In this document: in pieces, positions 1,758 to 29,373 of the stretch
Layout of the letters: each line of letters starts with the position of its first letter
Numbering within the stretch: the first letter of the stretch is position 1
Source: a virus
Length of the DNA stretch: 33,821 bases
Strand: one strand, 5' to 3'
IMG/VR virus record: IMGVR_UViG_3300032304_001282
Coordinates: 1 to 33,821 of that record
Made by a program: the position numbers and the translations under genes
The notes under the pieces: model-generated
The model's database searches: none
Told to the model about the DNA's origin: nothing
The model's input: only the letters and a program-made list of their open reading frames with translations

Positions 1758-2143
1758 ATAACGAATCTCCACCCGGTATTGAATCGTCAGACAACACACT
1801 AAGTATTGATTTTGATGGAGTAATTCATAGCTATCATTTAGGGTATCACGATGGCACAATATACGGTTACCCGATTGAGGGAAGTCTAGAAGCAGTTCGT
1901 GAATTAAGTACACAATATAAAATTGTTATCTTTACAGCTAAAGCTAAACCCGACCGCCCACTCGTAAACGGAAAGACAGGTAAAGAGCTTGTTTGGGAGT
2001 GGTTAAAGAAACACGGAATCGATGATTGCGTTGCAGAGGTTACATCTGAAAAACCACGAAGTTTCTTATATATTGATGATAACGGATACCGTTTTGAAAA
2101 TTGGAAAGAAACATGTAAGTTTGTTGAAGGAATTAGGTCTTGA
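1754..2143 (+). CDS. Small HAD-like phosphatase
   Basis: 129 aa. Motif I is DFDGVI with nucleophile D19 and acid/base D21. Motif II is the threonine in IVIFTAK, and a late YIDDNGYRF supplies the acidic motif. There is no sizeable cap domain, so it resembles small phage and bacterial HAD phosphatases of the polynucleotide-kinase-phosphatase or sugar-phosphatase type. In this operon dephosphorylation of a sugar phosphate is the simplest reading, but a nucleotide substrate is possible. It shares ATGA with the upstream cupin and overlaps the TTG start of the next gene. Confidence 0.75.
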   Translation: MNNESPPGIESSDNTLSIDFDGVIHSYHLGYHDGTIYGYPIEGSLEAVRELSTQYKIVIFTAKAKPDRPLVNGKTGKELVWEWLKKHGIDDCVAEVTSEKPRSFLYIDDNGYRFENWKETCKFVEGIRS

Positions 2144-3276
2144 TTACAAGCATCGAAGATCTGCATCAGCTTTATAAAAAGCGAGTCCCCCGCATGTTTT
2201 ATGATTATACCGCCGGCGGATCCTGGACTGAGGGCACACTGAAGTCAAATGAACAAGATTTTCAAAGTATAAAGTTACGTCAACGAGTTGGGATTGATAT
2301 TAGTAATCGTAGTATTAAATCTAATCTAATCGGGGAAGATGTAAGTATACCAGTAGTACTAGCACCGGTTGGTATGATCGGAATGCAACGTGCTGATGGA
2401 GAGATTCTTGCCGCTCAAGCCGCAGAAGAATTTAATGTACCATTCTGCTTATCAACGATGAGTATCTGTTCTATTGAGGATGTTGCTAAAGCAACTACTA
2501 AGCCTTTTTGGTTTCAGTTATATGTTGTACGTGATAAGCAGTTTACAGAGGATTTGATTAATCGTGCAAAAGCCGCAAAGTGTTCTGCACTTGTTGTAAC
2601 ACTTGATTGCCAAATTTCTAGTCAACGTCTTAGAGATATTAAAAATGGGCTGTCAGTTCCTCCGAAACTTACAATTAAGAATATAGTTAACATGATAACT
2701 AAAGTTCGTTGGGGTATAGGTATGTTAGGGACTAAGCATCGTACTTTTGGTAACATTGCAGGACATGTTGCAGGTGTTAATGATTTGTCAACGATTAGTC
2801 AGTGGACTAATAATCAATTTGACCCCACATTTACATGGGACGACATTGCTTGGATTAAGCAGAAATGGGGTGGAAAACTAATCCTCAAAGGTATACTAGA
2901 TAAAGAAGATGCACTAAAAGCAATGAGGGCGGGTGCTGATGCTATTGTTGTTTCTAATCATGGCGGGCGCCAACTAGATGGTGCACCATCAAGCATTATA
3001 GCATTACCGGCAATTATAAAAGCAGTCGGCAATGGAACAGAAGTATGGTTAGATAGTGGTGTTCGTTCAGGACAAGACACTTTAAAGGCGATTGCATTAG
3101 GCGCAAAGGGTGTTATGATTGGTAGACCTTATGTATATGGAGTAGGAGCATTAGGTAAACAAGGTGTTACTAAGGCTCTAGAAATTATTGCAAAAGAGCT
3201 AGACTTAACAATGGCATTCTGCGGAGTGCAAAATATTAAAGAAGTTACAAAGGACATTTTGTATGAGAGTTTGTGA
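2140..3276 (+). CDS. FMN-dependent alpha-hydroxy-acid dehydrogenase/oxidase (lactate/glycolate oxidase type)
   Basis: 378 aa, the normal size for the L-lactate dehydrogenase LldD/glycolate oxidase family. Residues 21-27 (YDYTAGG), FQLYV with Y128, the flavin lysine K250 in LILKG, the catalytic pair H274/R277 in SNHGGRQLDG, and the phosphate loop SGVRSGQD with ALGAKGVMIGR are all present, so the enzyme looks active. It uses a TTG start whose last bases overlap the previous TGA. Members oxidise L-2-hydroxyacids to 2-ketoacids. As it is directly upstream of a thiamine-diphosphate enzyme, it may supply pyruvate or another ketoacid donor; this link is inference. Confidence 0.9.
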   Translation: MITSIEDLHQLYKKRVPRMFYDYTAGGSWTEGTLKSNEQDFQSIKLRQRVGIDISNRSIKSNLIGEDVSIPVVLAPVGMIGMQRADGEILAAQAAEEFNVPFCLSTMSICSIEDVAKATTKPFWFQLYVVRDKQFTEDLINRAKAAKCSALVVTLDCQISSQRLRDIKNGLSVPPKLTIKNIVNMITKVRWGIGMLGTKHRTFGNIAGHVAGVNDLSTISQWTNNQFDPTFTWDDIAWIKQKWGGKLILKGILDKEDALKAMRAGADAIVVSNHGGRQLDGAPSSIIALPAIIKAVGNGTEVWLDSGVRSGQDTLKAIALGAKGVMIGRPYVYGVGALGKQGVTKALEIIAKELDLTMAFCGVQNIKEVTKDILYESL

Positions 3277-14958: not shown

Positions 14959-15126
14959 ATGGACCAGAACAAAAAACCAGTAGAGCAATATTACTACTCC
15001 GAAGACGAGTGGGCAAGGTTAGGCTGTGGCCCTTTACCGTCCGAACGTGATCGCAATAAGATAGTGGATGCCCACGCAAAAGGTAATCCCAAGATTGACG
15101 GTAAAGTTGTAAAAGGGTATAATTAA
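14959..15126 (+). CDS. Small hypothetical protein
   Basis: 55 aa from ATG 14959; an ORF extending upstream to 14863 is only an overlap with the preceding gene. It is hydrophilic, with EQYYYSEDEWARLGCGPLP at the front and a lysine-rich end. Unrecognised. It is the last protein gene before the palindrome and the tmRNA locus. Confidence 0.55.
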   Translation: MDQNKKPVEQYYYSEDEWARLGCGPLPSERDRNKIVDAHAKGNPKIDGKVVKGYN

Positions 15127-15134
15127 TTTTGTTT

Positions 15135-15154
15135 TGCATTTTGATCAAAATGCA
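15135..15154. repeat. Perfect 20-base palindrome
   Basis: TGCATTTTGATCAAAATGCA reads the same on both strands. No T-run follows in either direction, so a terminator is unlikely; a dimeric-protein operator or RNA processing hairpin is possible. It sits between the 55-aa gene and the tiny membrane ORF. Confidence 0.7.
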
Positions 15155-15178
15155 TGGTGGGTCGGACTAGGAGACAAT

Positions 15179-15247
15179 GTGGAACAGGATTATAGTTTTG
15201 TTATAGGCGTAGTTCTTGTACTAATTGTCTTTGTTTGGATTTTATAA
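15179..15247 (+). CDS. Tiny predicted single-pass membrane peptide (GTG start)
   Basis: 22 aa: five polar residues then an unbroken hydrophobic stretch (about residues 7-22, FVIGVVLVLIVFVWIL). A well-placed AGGAGA lies five bases before the GTG. This looks like a real inner-membrane micropeptide, though its small size leaves doubt. It ends right where the tmRNA acceptor piece begins, so it could share its transcript. Confidence 0.4.
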   Translation: MEQDYSFVIGVVLVLIVFVWIL

Positions 15248-15249
15248 AA

Positions 15250-15594
15250 GAATTGTTGTAATTCCTTCGTAGTGAAGGCGTTGTGGACCCGGGTTCGATT
15301 CCCGGCATCTCCACCAAAGTGTATTGGATACATTGATGTTATCGAACGGCATCGGTCACTTTCTAGTACGCTTCGTTGGGGATGACAAGGTTTCGACATG
15401 GCGAGATAGCGAAAGAGGCAACACAGTAGGCGATGACTGTAAATCAAGCAAAACTCGTAAATGCAAAAGCAAATACAGGCGAAGTAACTGTTTCAGGTAA
15501 GAACGTCAAGTTCTCTGCTCGTACAGCACAACGCCAATCATTAGCAGTTTAATCACTGCTTAGGGTAGTTATACCTCGTAACAGAAAATAACAG
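15250..15594 (+). ncRNA. ssrA: Circularly permuted (two-piece) tmRNA
   Basis: The 3' acceptor part comes first: T arm CCGGG TTCGATT CCCGG at 15289-15305, acceptor strand CATCTCC at 15306-15312, then A and CCA ending at 15316. After a spacer of 61 bases the 5' part starts at 15378 with GGGGATG, which pairs with the acceptor strand over seven base pairs, including the G3-U70 wobble that alanyl-tRNA synthetase reads. GGTTTCGACA is the tmRNA D-loop analogue, and ACAGT/ACTGT at 15423-15440 could be PK1. The tag frame ends RTAQRQSLAV, stop at 15550-15552. This order is that of permuted ssrA genes, which need excision of the spacer. The exact 5' and 3' processing ends are not determined. Confidence 0.88.
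15469..15552 (+). other. tmRNA tag reading frame (approximate start)
   Basis: Reading back from the TAA at 15550, frame 1 is open to 15430. The most tmRNA-like resume codon is GCA at 15469, giving ANTGEV at the start and QRQSLAV at the end, 27 residues. GCA at 15463 or 15448 are alternatives. The hydrophobic LAV ending fits a ClpXP-type degron, but the tag is longer than common 8-16 residue tags. Confidence 0.6.
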
Positions 15595-15620
15595 ATAGGC
15601 TCCTCGGAGCCTATTCTTTT
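15595..15620 (+). terminator. Intrinsic terminator after the tmRNA
   Basis: ATAGGCTC (15595-15602) pairs with GAGCCTAT (15607-15614) over a CTCG loop, followed by TCTTTT. It closes the tmRNA transcription unit. Confidence 0.8.
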
Positions 15621-15748: not shown

Positions 15749-16870
15749 ATGAAAAAACTATTAGCAACTTTATTGTTGTCTCTTGGCGTAGTTACTATGG
15801 CGGCGGCACAGAGTTCGGTTACCATTTATGGTATCCTGGATGCCGGTTACATCGGTAAGAATCTCAAAGGTTCACCAGCAACAGCAACCAACACTCTCAA
15901 CTCCAATCAGTTCGGATCTAGTGCAGAAACAACTAGCCGTCTTGGTTTTAGAGGCACAGAAGACTTGGGTGGTGGTACCTCTGCATTCTTTACCATTGAA
16001 ACTGGAGTAACGCCCACCAGTTCTACTCTTAGCTCGTTCAACAATCGTCAAAGTTTTGTTGGAGTTGCACAAAAAGGTCTTGGCAACGTGGCTGTTGGTA
16101 CACAGTATAGTCCTATACACAAGGCTGTTGCGGCAACTGACCCGGGTCAGCAAAACAACACCATTGGTTCGGTGATCTATCCTTCTGCTGGCACCGATGG
16201 CGGACAGAGCTCAGCTGATGCAGCCTACACAATCCGTTTCAACAACAGCTTGACAGCTACCACAGAGCGCAAAGCAGGCTTTAGTGCCAATGCAATCTAC
16301 TCTATGAACAACCAGACCAGCACCCAAACAGGCGCTACCACTGGTGGTCAAGTAGATGCAAATGCATATGGCCTAGGTGCTGACTACTCGCGTGGAAACT
16401 TGTACGCTACCGTGGCATATCAAAGTGTCAAAAGTATCAACGACACATCAGCTACTGCGTCGGTAAGTTCTGCATTTGTAGGTACCAACACCACTGACAG
16501 TCAGTTGTATGCAGGTGCCACATATGATTTGAAAATTGTTAAATTGTTTGCAGGTTTCACTGATCGCAAGATTTCTAGCAACTTGAACAGTGCAAATCAA
16601 CTCAATCGTACAGCACAGCAAATTGGTGCACGTGGTTTTATCACTAAGACGGTTGAAGGTTGGGCAAGTGTAGGCAATGGACGTTACAATGCATTTGGTA
16701 CGAACCAAGCTACAGCCGACTTCACAGCATATCAAGTTGGTACAAACTACTGGATGAGCAAGCGTACAAACTTGTATGCAATTGCTGGCAGTACACAAAC
16801 AAGTAGCACAAGCCAAGTTGGCGCACTCAGTGGCAACATGTATGCCACAGGTATACGTCACACATTCTAA
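15749..16870 (+). CDS. Gram-negative outer-membrane porin (Porin_4-like, betaproteobacterial type)
   Basis: 373 aa from the ATG at 15749, with AAGGA about ten bases upstream; the in-frame GTG at 15707 would mask the signal peptide. Residues 1-20 are a typical signal peptide ending MAAA, and the mature protein starts QSSVTIYGILDAGY, the classic opening of Burkholderiales porins. Alternating amphipathic strands, GFRGTEDLGGG, RQSFVG and the terminal phenylalanine (GIRHTF) needed for BAM recognition are present. It would form a trimeric 16-strand diffusion pore in the outer membrane. Two hairpin terminators isolate it as a single-gene unit. Confidence 0.92.
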   Translation: MKKLLATLLLSLGVVTMAAAQSSVTIYGILDAGYIGKNLKGSPATATNTLNSNQFGSSAETTSRLGFRGTEDLGGGTSAFFTIETGVTPTSSTLSSFNNRQSFVGVAQKGLGNVAVGTQYSPIHKAVAATDPGQQNNTIGSVIYPSAGTDGGQSSADAAYTIRFNNSLTATTERKAGFSANAIYSMNNQTSTQTGATTGGQVDANAYGLGADYSRGNLYATVAYQSVKSINDTSATASVSSAFVGTNTTDSQLYAGATYDLKIVKLFAGFTDRKISSNLNSANQLNRTAQQIGARGFITKTVEGWASVGNGRYNAFGTNQATADFTAYQVGTNYWMSKRTNLYAIAGSTQTSSTSQVGALSGNMYATGIRHTF

Positions 16871-27339: not shown

Positions 27340-28477
27340 AGACAAGTTTGGATATTACCGAGTAGGTGATTACAAAACCTACAGCAAGGTAGACGCTATC
27401 GAAACACAAACCAGAAACGGCATTCATCCCCACTGGAATTTCAATGAAGAATTTTATTCTAGCTACAATTGGACCGTAGAACCAACTAAAAATTTACAAG
27501 AATTATATGCTGACCGAGCCAGACAAATTAGAGAAACATACGATCATGTGGTGTTAATGTGTAGTGGAGGTGCAGATAGTACCAACGTACTTAATAGTTT
27601 TGTGAAAAACAATATACAATTTGATGAAATTCTAACCTACAATTACTGGGAAGCAGACAACAATCCTGAAAGTTTTTTTCATGCTGAATTAACTCACGCT
27701 ATGTATCCGCTGATTAAAAAACTGCAAGAACAAGGAATTAAGTTCAAACATAGAGATTTTGATATGAGCCCGCTTGTTGCTAGCATCCTTACCGATCGTC
27801 AATATAGGCTTGAACGCGGTTATCTATCATCGTGTTTTTTTGGCATTGGGACTATTTGCAAAAGTTTTTTAAGAGATTATGTAGAAGATTACAAGAGATT
27901 ATCCGAACAAGGTAAAAAAGTTGTTTTTGTTTGGGCTTCAGAAAAACCCAGGGTATATTTTGATGGTCGTTATAACATAAGATTTTTAGATGTGTTTGAC
28001 AATGCTGTAAATCCCAGAACGCAAATGTTACAACGAGAAAACGAATATGACGAACTGTTTTATTGGTCACCCGAAGCTGTAGACATTGTTTGCAAGCAAG
28101 GACACATAATTAAAAATTTTTTTAAAAAAAATAAACTAGCACTAGAGGAAGACATAAATTCTGAAAAAGCTATTAAATTGCCCAATATCGAAACGGTATT
28201 CAACAACAATGATACCCAAGACCGTTTAGGGTACAGATTTTTAATTGATAAACTGGTATACCCAGACTGGAACACATCAACGTTTAGTGTAGGCAAGGGG
28301 AATGGCCCGTTGATAAGCCCGTTTGACGGAGTGTGGAATGGAGATAATATTTTTGGGCAAACTACTCAACTACTTGTACAACATATTAAATCATTACCAG
28401 AATATTGGTTATCAAACCCTAAAAAAATTCACAGAGGATTAAAACTATGCATCTCACCCGCTTATTATTTGGAATAA
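27317..28477 (+). CDS. PP-loop ATPase (adenine nucleotide alpha-hydrolase-like), copy 2
   Basis: 386 aa. PP-loop SGGADS at 83-88 in LMCSGGADSTNVLNSF. Other stretches, for instance KVVFVWASEKPRV, fit N-type ATP pyrophosphatases, but the C-terminal half is unknown. Probably a relative of copy 1 with a different substrate. Both ends overlap the neighbours (23 and 31 bases), so it belongs to a five-gene unit with the oxygenase, the Bug-type protein and the SDR. Confidence 0.75.
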   Translation: MIILGNNKDKFGYYRVGDYKTYSKVDAIETQTRNGIHPHWNFNEEFYSSYNWTVEPTKNLQELYADRARQIRETYDHVVLMCSGGADSTNVLNSFVKNNIQFDEILTYNYWEADNNPESFFHAELTHAMYPLIKKLQEQGIKFKHRDFDMSPLVASILTDRQYRLERGYLSSCFFGIGTICKSFLRDYVEDYKRLSEQGKKVVFVWASEKPRVYFDGRYNIRFLDVFDNAVNPRTQMLQRENEYDELFYWSPEAVDIVCKQGHIIKNFFKKNKLALEEDINSEKAIKLPNIETVFNNNDTQDRLGYRFLIDKLVYPDWNTSTFSVGKGNGPLISPFDGVWNGDNIFGQTTQLLVQHIKSLPEYWLSNPKKIHRGLKLCISPAYYLE

Positions 28478-29373
28478 TATTTGCTATATTCACAACAACC
28501 ATTCATGCAGAAGAATATAAAATTCTGTTGCCATTTCCGCCCGGTAACTTAGCAGATGTTGTATTGCGTAGCATGCAGGCCAGTATTGAACGCAACACTC
28601 CGGATCGTTTGATCATCATCAACATGCCCGGGGCCGAAACTGTTGTGGCTGCCAACCATTTTGTTGCTAACAAAAATATTGATATGATCTGGGGATCATC
28701 CAGTCAGACTGTGTGGAATCCTTTGCTGAAAGACACTGTTAAATATAGAGACAAGGATTTTCGAAATCTTGTATTGGTTGGTACAGTTAATGCATTGTGG
28801 GTGGTTCGATCTGGTACCAAGATTCATACTCCACAAGACCTAGTTAAAAATCTGCCGGATCTAGTGGGTGGATTCGCTACCGCGTACAATCTAAATCTAG
28901 AAGCCGTGGTTAGAAAATACAACAAAAAATCCACCATAGTTCCTTTCAAAGGTACCAACGACATTGTTGCGTCTTTATTAGGCGGCAACATAGATATGGC
29001 CTTAATTACTGGTAGCAACATGCTGATGCAACATGTAAAGGAAGGCAAGTTGGCCATTATTGGCAACACAGGTTCTACGGCTATTACAATAGATGGTATA
29101 ACAATTCCGTCCGTGCCTAACAGTTTAAAAGTTTCTGGATTCAGCGGAATTTCTATGATACTTACTCATGCCGATATGGACGAAAGGAAAGCACTACGTA
29201 TGAAAACATTGTTGTGGAATGCCTTGCAAGATCCGGCTACAAAACAAGTGATCAAAAATCTTTATCTACAACCGGATGCCACCGATAATCAGATTTTTAT
29301 TGACAATTATATTCAATCTGAACAGGCCAGGGCCAAAGAGTTTTTAATTCATCCTGTAAGTATACTTCAATGA
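28447..29373 (+). CDS. Bug/TctC-family tripartite tricarboxylate-type periplasmic binding protein
   Basis: 308 aa. A 21-residue signal peptide ends IHA, then EEYKILLPFPPGN starts the mature protein. VPFKGTNDIVASLLGGNIDMAL is the family's signature loop, and ADVV with PGAE lie in the ligand pocket. Such proteins catch carboxylates in the periplasm for tripartite transporters; no membrane subunit is in the window. Start 28447 is within the upstream gene (31-base overlap). A phage copy is unexpected. Confidence 0.88.
   Translation: MHLTRLLFGIIFAIFTTTIHAEEYKILLPFPPGNLADVVLRSMQASIERNTPDRLIIINMPGAETVVAANHFVANKNIDMIWGSSSQTVWNPLLKDTVKYRDKDFRNLVLVGTVNALWVVRSGTKIHTPQDLVKNLPDLVGGFATAYNLNLEAVVRKYNKKSTIVPFKGTNDIVASLLGGNIDMALITGSNMLMQHVKEGKLAIIGNTGSTAITIDGITIPSVPNSLKVSGFSGISMILTHADMDERKALRMKTLLWNALQDPATKQVIKNLYLQPDATDNQIFIDNYIQSEQARAKEFLIHPVSILQ

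Follow-up and report, generated by a model that had tools for sequence, protein, structure and literature searches.

Why does a phage genome carry a two-piece tmRNA whose tag runs to 29 residues and ends in LAV, and what could such a tag do? We addressed this question in IMG/VR virus record IMGVR_UViG_3300032304_001282, analysed over its whole 33,821 bases (positions 1 to 33,821, hereafter the window), and in the related phage contigs that carry the same kind of gene.

A circularly permuted tmRNA gene

A circularly permuted (two-piece) tmRNA gene occupies 15254-15617. The covariance model for permuted tmRNA, RF04321, matched 15254-15495 at 129.9 bits (gathering threshold 47), the betaproteobacterial two-piece model RF01850 matched 15202-15617 at 127.9 bits (family cut-off 84), and ARAGORN independently called a permuted tmRNA (tmRNA*) with a 29-residue tag. 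The original prediction had placed an acceptor half, ending in CCA at 15316, upstream of a 5' half starting at 15378, and had named a covariance-model search as the way to check it; both the models and ARAGORN bear out this order. Within the acceptor half, CATCTCC (15306-15312) is followed by A and the CCA and pairs at 7/7 positions with GGGGATG (15378-15384), while the alanine identity pair G3-U70, also foreseen as a wobble in a seven-base helix, is present as G15380-U15310. The tag had been read as about 27 residues ending LAV; the LAV end stands, but the length does not, since the resume codon GCA at 15463 and the stop codon TAA at 15550-15552 delimit 29 codons (15463-15549). The features of the locus are collected in Table 1; the 3' terminal stem was listed by a pattern scan for the minus strand only.

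Table 1. Features of the permuted tmRNA locus and its upstream region
Feature	Coordinates	Strand	Basis
Sigma-70-like promoter candidate, TTGACG-17-TATAAT (11/12)	15095..15123	+	Consensus match only; promoter-like sites in the region are no commoner than in shuffles
Conserved leader element: 8-bp hairpin TGCATTTT/AAAATGCA, then TGGTGGGTCGG	15135..15165	+	Covarying stems in 17 further phage loci
Acceptor half: T arm, acceptor 3' strand, CCA	15254..15316	+	RF04321/RF01850 alignments
Intervening sequence, presumed removed by processing	15317..15377	+	Position between the tRNA-like halves; length and sequence vary in relatives
tRNA-like 5' half (GGGGATG, ggTTTCGAC) and pre-tag pseudoknot region	15378..15462	+	Covariance-model alignment
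Tag frame, 29 codons and TAA, AKANTGEVTVSGKNVKFSARTAQRQSLAV	15463..15552	+	ARAGORN; conserved in ~80 distinct phage loci
RNA hairpin within the tag frame, AGAAC-GTCAA-GTTCT	15500..15514	+	Closing-pair covariation
H5-like hairpin GCAGT-TTAATC-ACTGC, stop codon in loop	15544..15559	+	Direct reading; alignment
Post-tag pseudoknot GGGTA/TACCT and GTTA/TAAC	15563..15592	+	Stem 1 strand-pair shuffle test; loop-tail co-changes
3' terminator-type hairpin ATAGGCTCCTCGGAGCCTAT, then T-rich tail	15595..15614	+	3' stem of RF01850

Comparison with relatives supported the predicted pairing of the two halves. The acceptor stem was fully paired (7/7) in 44 of 47 automatically placed stems despite variable positions 4-6 (GC, CG, TA and others), and across 14 distinct combinations the halves formed a mean of 6.5 pairs, as opposed to 5.17 after the halves were re-dealt (maximum 6.07 in 1000 shuffles). 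The G3-U70 position was G-T in 12 of these 14 combinations, and the two without it are probably wrongly placed T arms. Stem 1 of the post-tag pseudoknot, represented by 10 distinct strand pairs, had a mean of 4.4 of 5 positions paired against 3.41 when shuffled, a value reached by 0 of 2000 shuffles, and stem 2 co-changed as GTTA/TAAC, ATTA/TAAT and ACTA/TAGT.

Upstream of tmRNA genes of both tag kinds described below lies a leader hairpin whose 7-9 pairs covary and which leads into TGGTGGGTCGG, the loci including L013, L021, L022, L094, L100, L106, L108, L129 and L133 as well as L147, L181, L187, L190, L230 and others. Exact leader matches numbered three in 20 large phage contigs, each lying just upstream of a tmRNA, and the hairpin matched no Rfam family. 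Separately, we observed that the leader 11-mer TGGTGGGTCGG is exactly complementary to the 3' end of a Burkholderiaceae tRNA-Lys(UUU) (CCGACCCACCA), a sequence found in 5/5 Polynucleobacter genomes searched.

Phage setting and likely host

The phage-like setting noted at the outset was confirmed by the virus record itself, by PHROG-matched genes and by tRNA genes. Upstream of the tmRNA are a 5'-3' exonuclease, a MazG-type gene and sugar or nucleotide genes (PHROG matches); downstream are a porin, glycan genes and 9 tRNAs. Given that the exonuclease is ~50% identical to those of the jumbo phages PA5oct and XbC2 and of Erwinia SNUABM phages, and that related IMG/VR contigs reach lengths of up to 344 kb, we regard the window as a fragment of a jumbo phage, a large freshwater phage that probably infects Polynucleobacter-like bacteria. 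The window porin shares 50% identity with its Polynucleobacter counterparts, and this one gene, together with the match to a betaproteobacterial-type model, makes a Polynucleobacter-like host likely. The porin had no counterpart in 50,697 phage records, and relatives of it occur in four other IMG/VR contigs, at least two of which (L279, L281) also have a long-tag tmRNA.

Several genes of the window merit mention in their own right. The porin (15749-16870), directly downstream of the tmRNA, is a full-length outer-membrane protein (PF13609, E 1e-36) with a signal-peptide-like start, and two metabolic-type genes that are unusual in phage encode an FMN-dependent dehydrogenase (2140-3276; PF01070, E 4e-133) and a TctC-type tricarboxylate-binding protein (28447-29373; PF03401, E 3e-11).

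In five Polynucleobacter genomes the tmRNA is of the one-piece kind, with the tag ANDERFALAA, and none of the five contains a permuted tmRNA over the cut-off; it follows that the phage did not recently copy its gene from the likely host. Permuted tmRNAs were found in 12 of 300 Burkholderiales genomes, the clear ones with 10-residue tags, and the ARAGORN tag of one locus of this set (L260) looks like a wrong call. With regard to partner proteins, no SmpB gene was detected in 20 large long-tag phage contigs and no SspB in the 10 largest. ClpP is encoded by 3 of the 20 large contigs (G001, G002 and G008; L304-L307), including both that exceed 300 kb. The phage ClpP matches score up to 270 bits, and the 340-kb contig has two copies.

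A long-tag family found in phage contigs

The long-tag family comprises 80 distinct loci and 53 peptide strings after removal of repeats, one string being cut by a contig end; the sampled waters behind its contigs are limited in number, and not every contig is independent of the others. Its consensus is GEVTV..F...[LF]AV, and all 79 complete tags that were scored end at an in-frame TAA and are only 28, 29, 30 or 31 codons long. A degenerate peptide pattern of the tag found 76 stretches in IMG/VR and 0 in 84,980 bacterial and archaeal species genomes, with the proviso that the pattern fixes GEVTVS, so that diverged tags (L046, L049) would escape it; a nucleotide pattern gave ~100 further viral stretches, some of them chance matches. 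A tblastn search with the window tag against 50,697 sequenced phage records returned no match. The original prediction was thus right to single out the tag as the unusual part. Its suggestion of a cyanobacterial affinity is not supported, as the window matched the betaproteobacterial RF01850 and not the cyanobacterial model, the linked porin has its nearest relatives in Polynucleobacter, and none of the bacterial and archaeal genomes searched contains the degenerate pattern.

ARAGORN misses ~40 long-tag loci, but Rfam models found a permuted tmRNA in 19 of 20 such loci that were scanned, so these are not tag-only genes. All 20 large long-tag phage contigs that were searched gave a permuted tmRNA as well.

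Three ideas about the origin or resemblance of the tag were considered and set aside. A host origin was rejected on the absence of the pattern, with its fixed GEVTVS, from bacterial and archaeal genomes. Descent from the C-terminus of host HU (TGE..KxVKFSA) is suggestive by eye and is not claimed: for five tags against one HU, chosen after the fact, 5, 106, 4, 30 and 5 of 500 shuffles were equally good, and a profile search of the tag against PDB chains returned no HU at E up to 10. A likeness to cardiac myosin-binding protein C (E 0.22) is a chance match.

Exchange of long and short tags at one locus

We examined 80 exonuclease-bearing contigs, in 14 of which ARAGORN found a permuted tmRNA, and observed two kinds of tag: short (ANDEQFALAA, ANASNDEVFALAA) and long (the family above). 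In close relatives the short tags have 10-13 residues, end in [A]LAA and occupy the same locus as the long ones, and in almost all relatives the tmRNA lies a few kb downstream of the 5'-3' exonuclease gene on the same strand. Short-tag phages fail to form one group on the exonuclease tree; there are five changes of tag type, at least three of them forced by well-supported branches. Between L022/L023 (long) and L027/L029 (short), the acceptor and 5' halves are nearly identical and divergence extends from the first pseudoknot through the tag, which looks like a direct swap of the pseudoknot-plus-tag piece. Two permuted tmRNAs lie 29 kb from each other on one contig of 235,812 bases (G003), with the tags ANDESYALAA and ANASKGEVTVSGKGIRFSARTAQRQTLAV (L230/L296, L213/L297), an arrangement that may be a chimeric assembly; the ANDESYALAA gene adjoins gp32-like, helicase-loader and endolysin genes.

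Proposed function and alternative readings

Judging from sequence comparison, we consider it about 80% probable that the locus is a functional phage two-piece tmRNA of betaproteobacterial type with a phage-specific, exchangeable tag cassette. Beyond the anatomy, pairing and covariation described above, we infer that the host's tRNA-processing enzymes would cleave a single precursor into two pieces, one with the acceptor and one with the D-loop and tag, held together by the acceptor stem, and that host alanyl-tRNA synthetase would charge the tmRNA through G3-U70. Host SmpB, whose use we assume, and EF-Tu would then bring the tmRNA, in the infected cell, to ribosomes that have stalled on broken mRNA, where translation would resume at GCA 15463 and append A+AKANTGEVTVSGKNVKFSARTAQRQSLAV. 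The hydrophobic [LF]AV end of the rescued peptide would probably be recognised by a host Clp protease or, in some relatives, by a phage-encoded Clp. In this phage group the long tag would thus be an exchangeable, RNA-structured cassette standing in place of the ordinary ANDxxFALAA tag. Ordinary trans-translation with host SmpB and alanyl-tRNA synthetase appears the most likely role, useful when infection leaves many broken mRNAs.

Two readings of the long tag, not mutually exclusive, bear on what the extra residues contribute. It is possible, and we hold this only tentatively, that the extra length serves the RNA, the insert being a structured hairpin module of the mRNA-like domain that the peptide merely tolerates. 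Such a role is consistent with the codons of GEVT, almost frozen in nucleotides (GGC GAA GTA ACT), with an outer CTG/CAG helix in the tag region that is paired in 49/49 cases and invariant, and with a minimum free energy z of -3.3 over 15378-15620. The closing pair of the in-tag hairpin points the same way, as it covaries across 65 distinct CDSs (C-G 52, A-U 10, U-A 1, U-G 1; 64/65 paired); scored over whole stems, 5 of 2000 shuffles were equally good. Indels, on the other hand, are of whole codons only, with frame and stop intact in 79/79 loci, nine residues are invariant in a 15-tag alignment (G6, E7, V8, T9, V10, K13, F17, A28 and V29), and most variation falls at the third codon position (entropy 13.3 vs 10.7 and 6.8), all of which speaks against this reading. 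Stops interrupt frame +1 in 65/65 distinct CDSs and frame +2 in 51/65. The pN/pS of the tag is only 0.71, in part because synonymous sites are also constrained by RNA pairing, and selection on peptide and on RNA is not strongly separated here. As the frame is conserved and the hairpins are kept, the cassette appears to be both peptide and RNA structure.

A ClpXP-type LAA end is usual for tmRNA tags, though not strictly defining. The window tag ends GCA GTT in place of the usual GCA GCT, a single transition that turns LAA into LAV and leaves the stop-codon hairpin GCAGT/ACTGC intact, and AV are the last two residues of every long tag. This constancy would fit a rather doubtful reading in which the insert and the change to LAV (GCT to GTT) make recognition by adaptor and ClpX weaker and divert rescued proteins from their normal ssrA fate, so that ribosomes are freed while tagged proteins are spared or steered to another protease or partner. 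Also in its favour are the second tag position, where K and N are about equally frequent in the 29-residue class, in contrast to the AND start of the host tag; the presence of SspB in 2 Polynucleobacter host genomes; and phages with both tag kinds (G003), which would need two fates. Hydrophobic C-termini other than LAA may nevertheless still be good degrons, and a literature search on LAV tags found no paper. The broader proposal, that freshwater jumbo phages reprogramme ribosome rescue through an exchangeable RNA-structured long tag leading to a fate unlike host ssrA degradation, some phages having two tmRNAs with one for each fate, strikes us as unlikely on present evidence. It is very improbable that the locus is the decayed remnant of a tmRNA captured from a host, or a small protein gene standing on its own and overlapping the tmRNA: an in-frame ATG does lie 30 nt before the resume codon in 41/79 loci, the window included, but an in-frame stop precedes any ATG in 35/79, a finding on which a standalone small ORF over the tag was rejected. 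Moreover, compensatory changes preserve the tRNA-like parts, the T-loop, the acceptor pairing and the pseudoknots, covariation that already makes a remnant or chance likeness unlikely.

On the main reading, the swapping of a phage-specific tag with a canonical one between close relatives at a single locus amounts to a natural experiment on protein stability, ribosome rescue and phage growth, and bears on why phages carry tmRNA. The mRNA-like domain here both encodes a peptide and forms a covarying hairpin, and the known range of tag sequences is widened. If the tag does alter the fate of rescued proteins, this would add a new way in which phages take over their hosts.

Comparison with known systems

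The commonest tmRNA tag length is 10, and phages account for 79 of the 97,179 sequences in the newest tmRNA database (PMC11915505). Tag lengths differ between species from 8 to 35 amino acids (PMC8012679), and with such variation the [LF]AV end does not exclude membership among tmRNAs. The window gene shares with the betaproteobacterial two-piece tmRNA (RF01850/RF04321) the permuted order, the tRNA-like domain, the beta-type 3' elements and the resume context UAAAUGCA. The clear permuted tmRNAs of the Burkholderiales genomes examined here have tags of 10 residues ending [A/I/M]AA, whereas the phage tags have 28-31 residues and an [LF]AV end.

A permuted tmRNA in a phage, whose origin and use in infection the original prediction took to be novel, has precedents: Melnitz and 53 two-piece phage tmRNAs were published in 2022 (PMC9004378), and like Melnitz and other marine phage genes ours is permuted and belongs to a lytic aquatic phage. 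The Melnitz ssrA is of alphaproteobacterial type and has a glutamine riboswitch (PMC9004378), whereas the window gene is of beta type with another tag family, and no Rfam riboswitch was found at it. Standard phage tmRNAs (mycobacteriophages, phage G and DS6A; PMC4131195) likewise show ssrA carried by phage; these are not listed as permuted, and DS6A has the tRNA-like domain only. A further precedent is the isolated Xanthomonas jumbo phage XacN1, whose permuted tmRNA, unannotated at the place read, we found here (L283, L287, L288) twice in its linear record AP018399, 319 kb apart; its tag ANANTFDYALAA differs from the long-tag family in having 12 residues and shares with many long tags the start ANANT. 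Collectively, these comparisons indicate that, as far as our searches show, the new elements are a family of long tags confined to phages, the exchange of these tags with short ones, the dual coding and structural nature of the tag and the associated leader hairpin.
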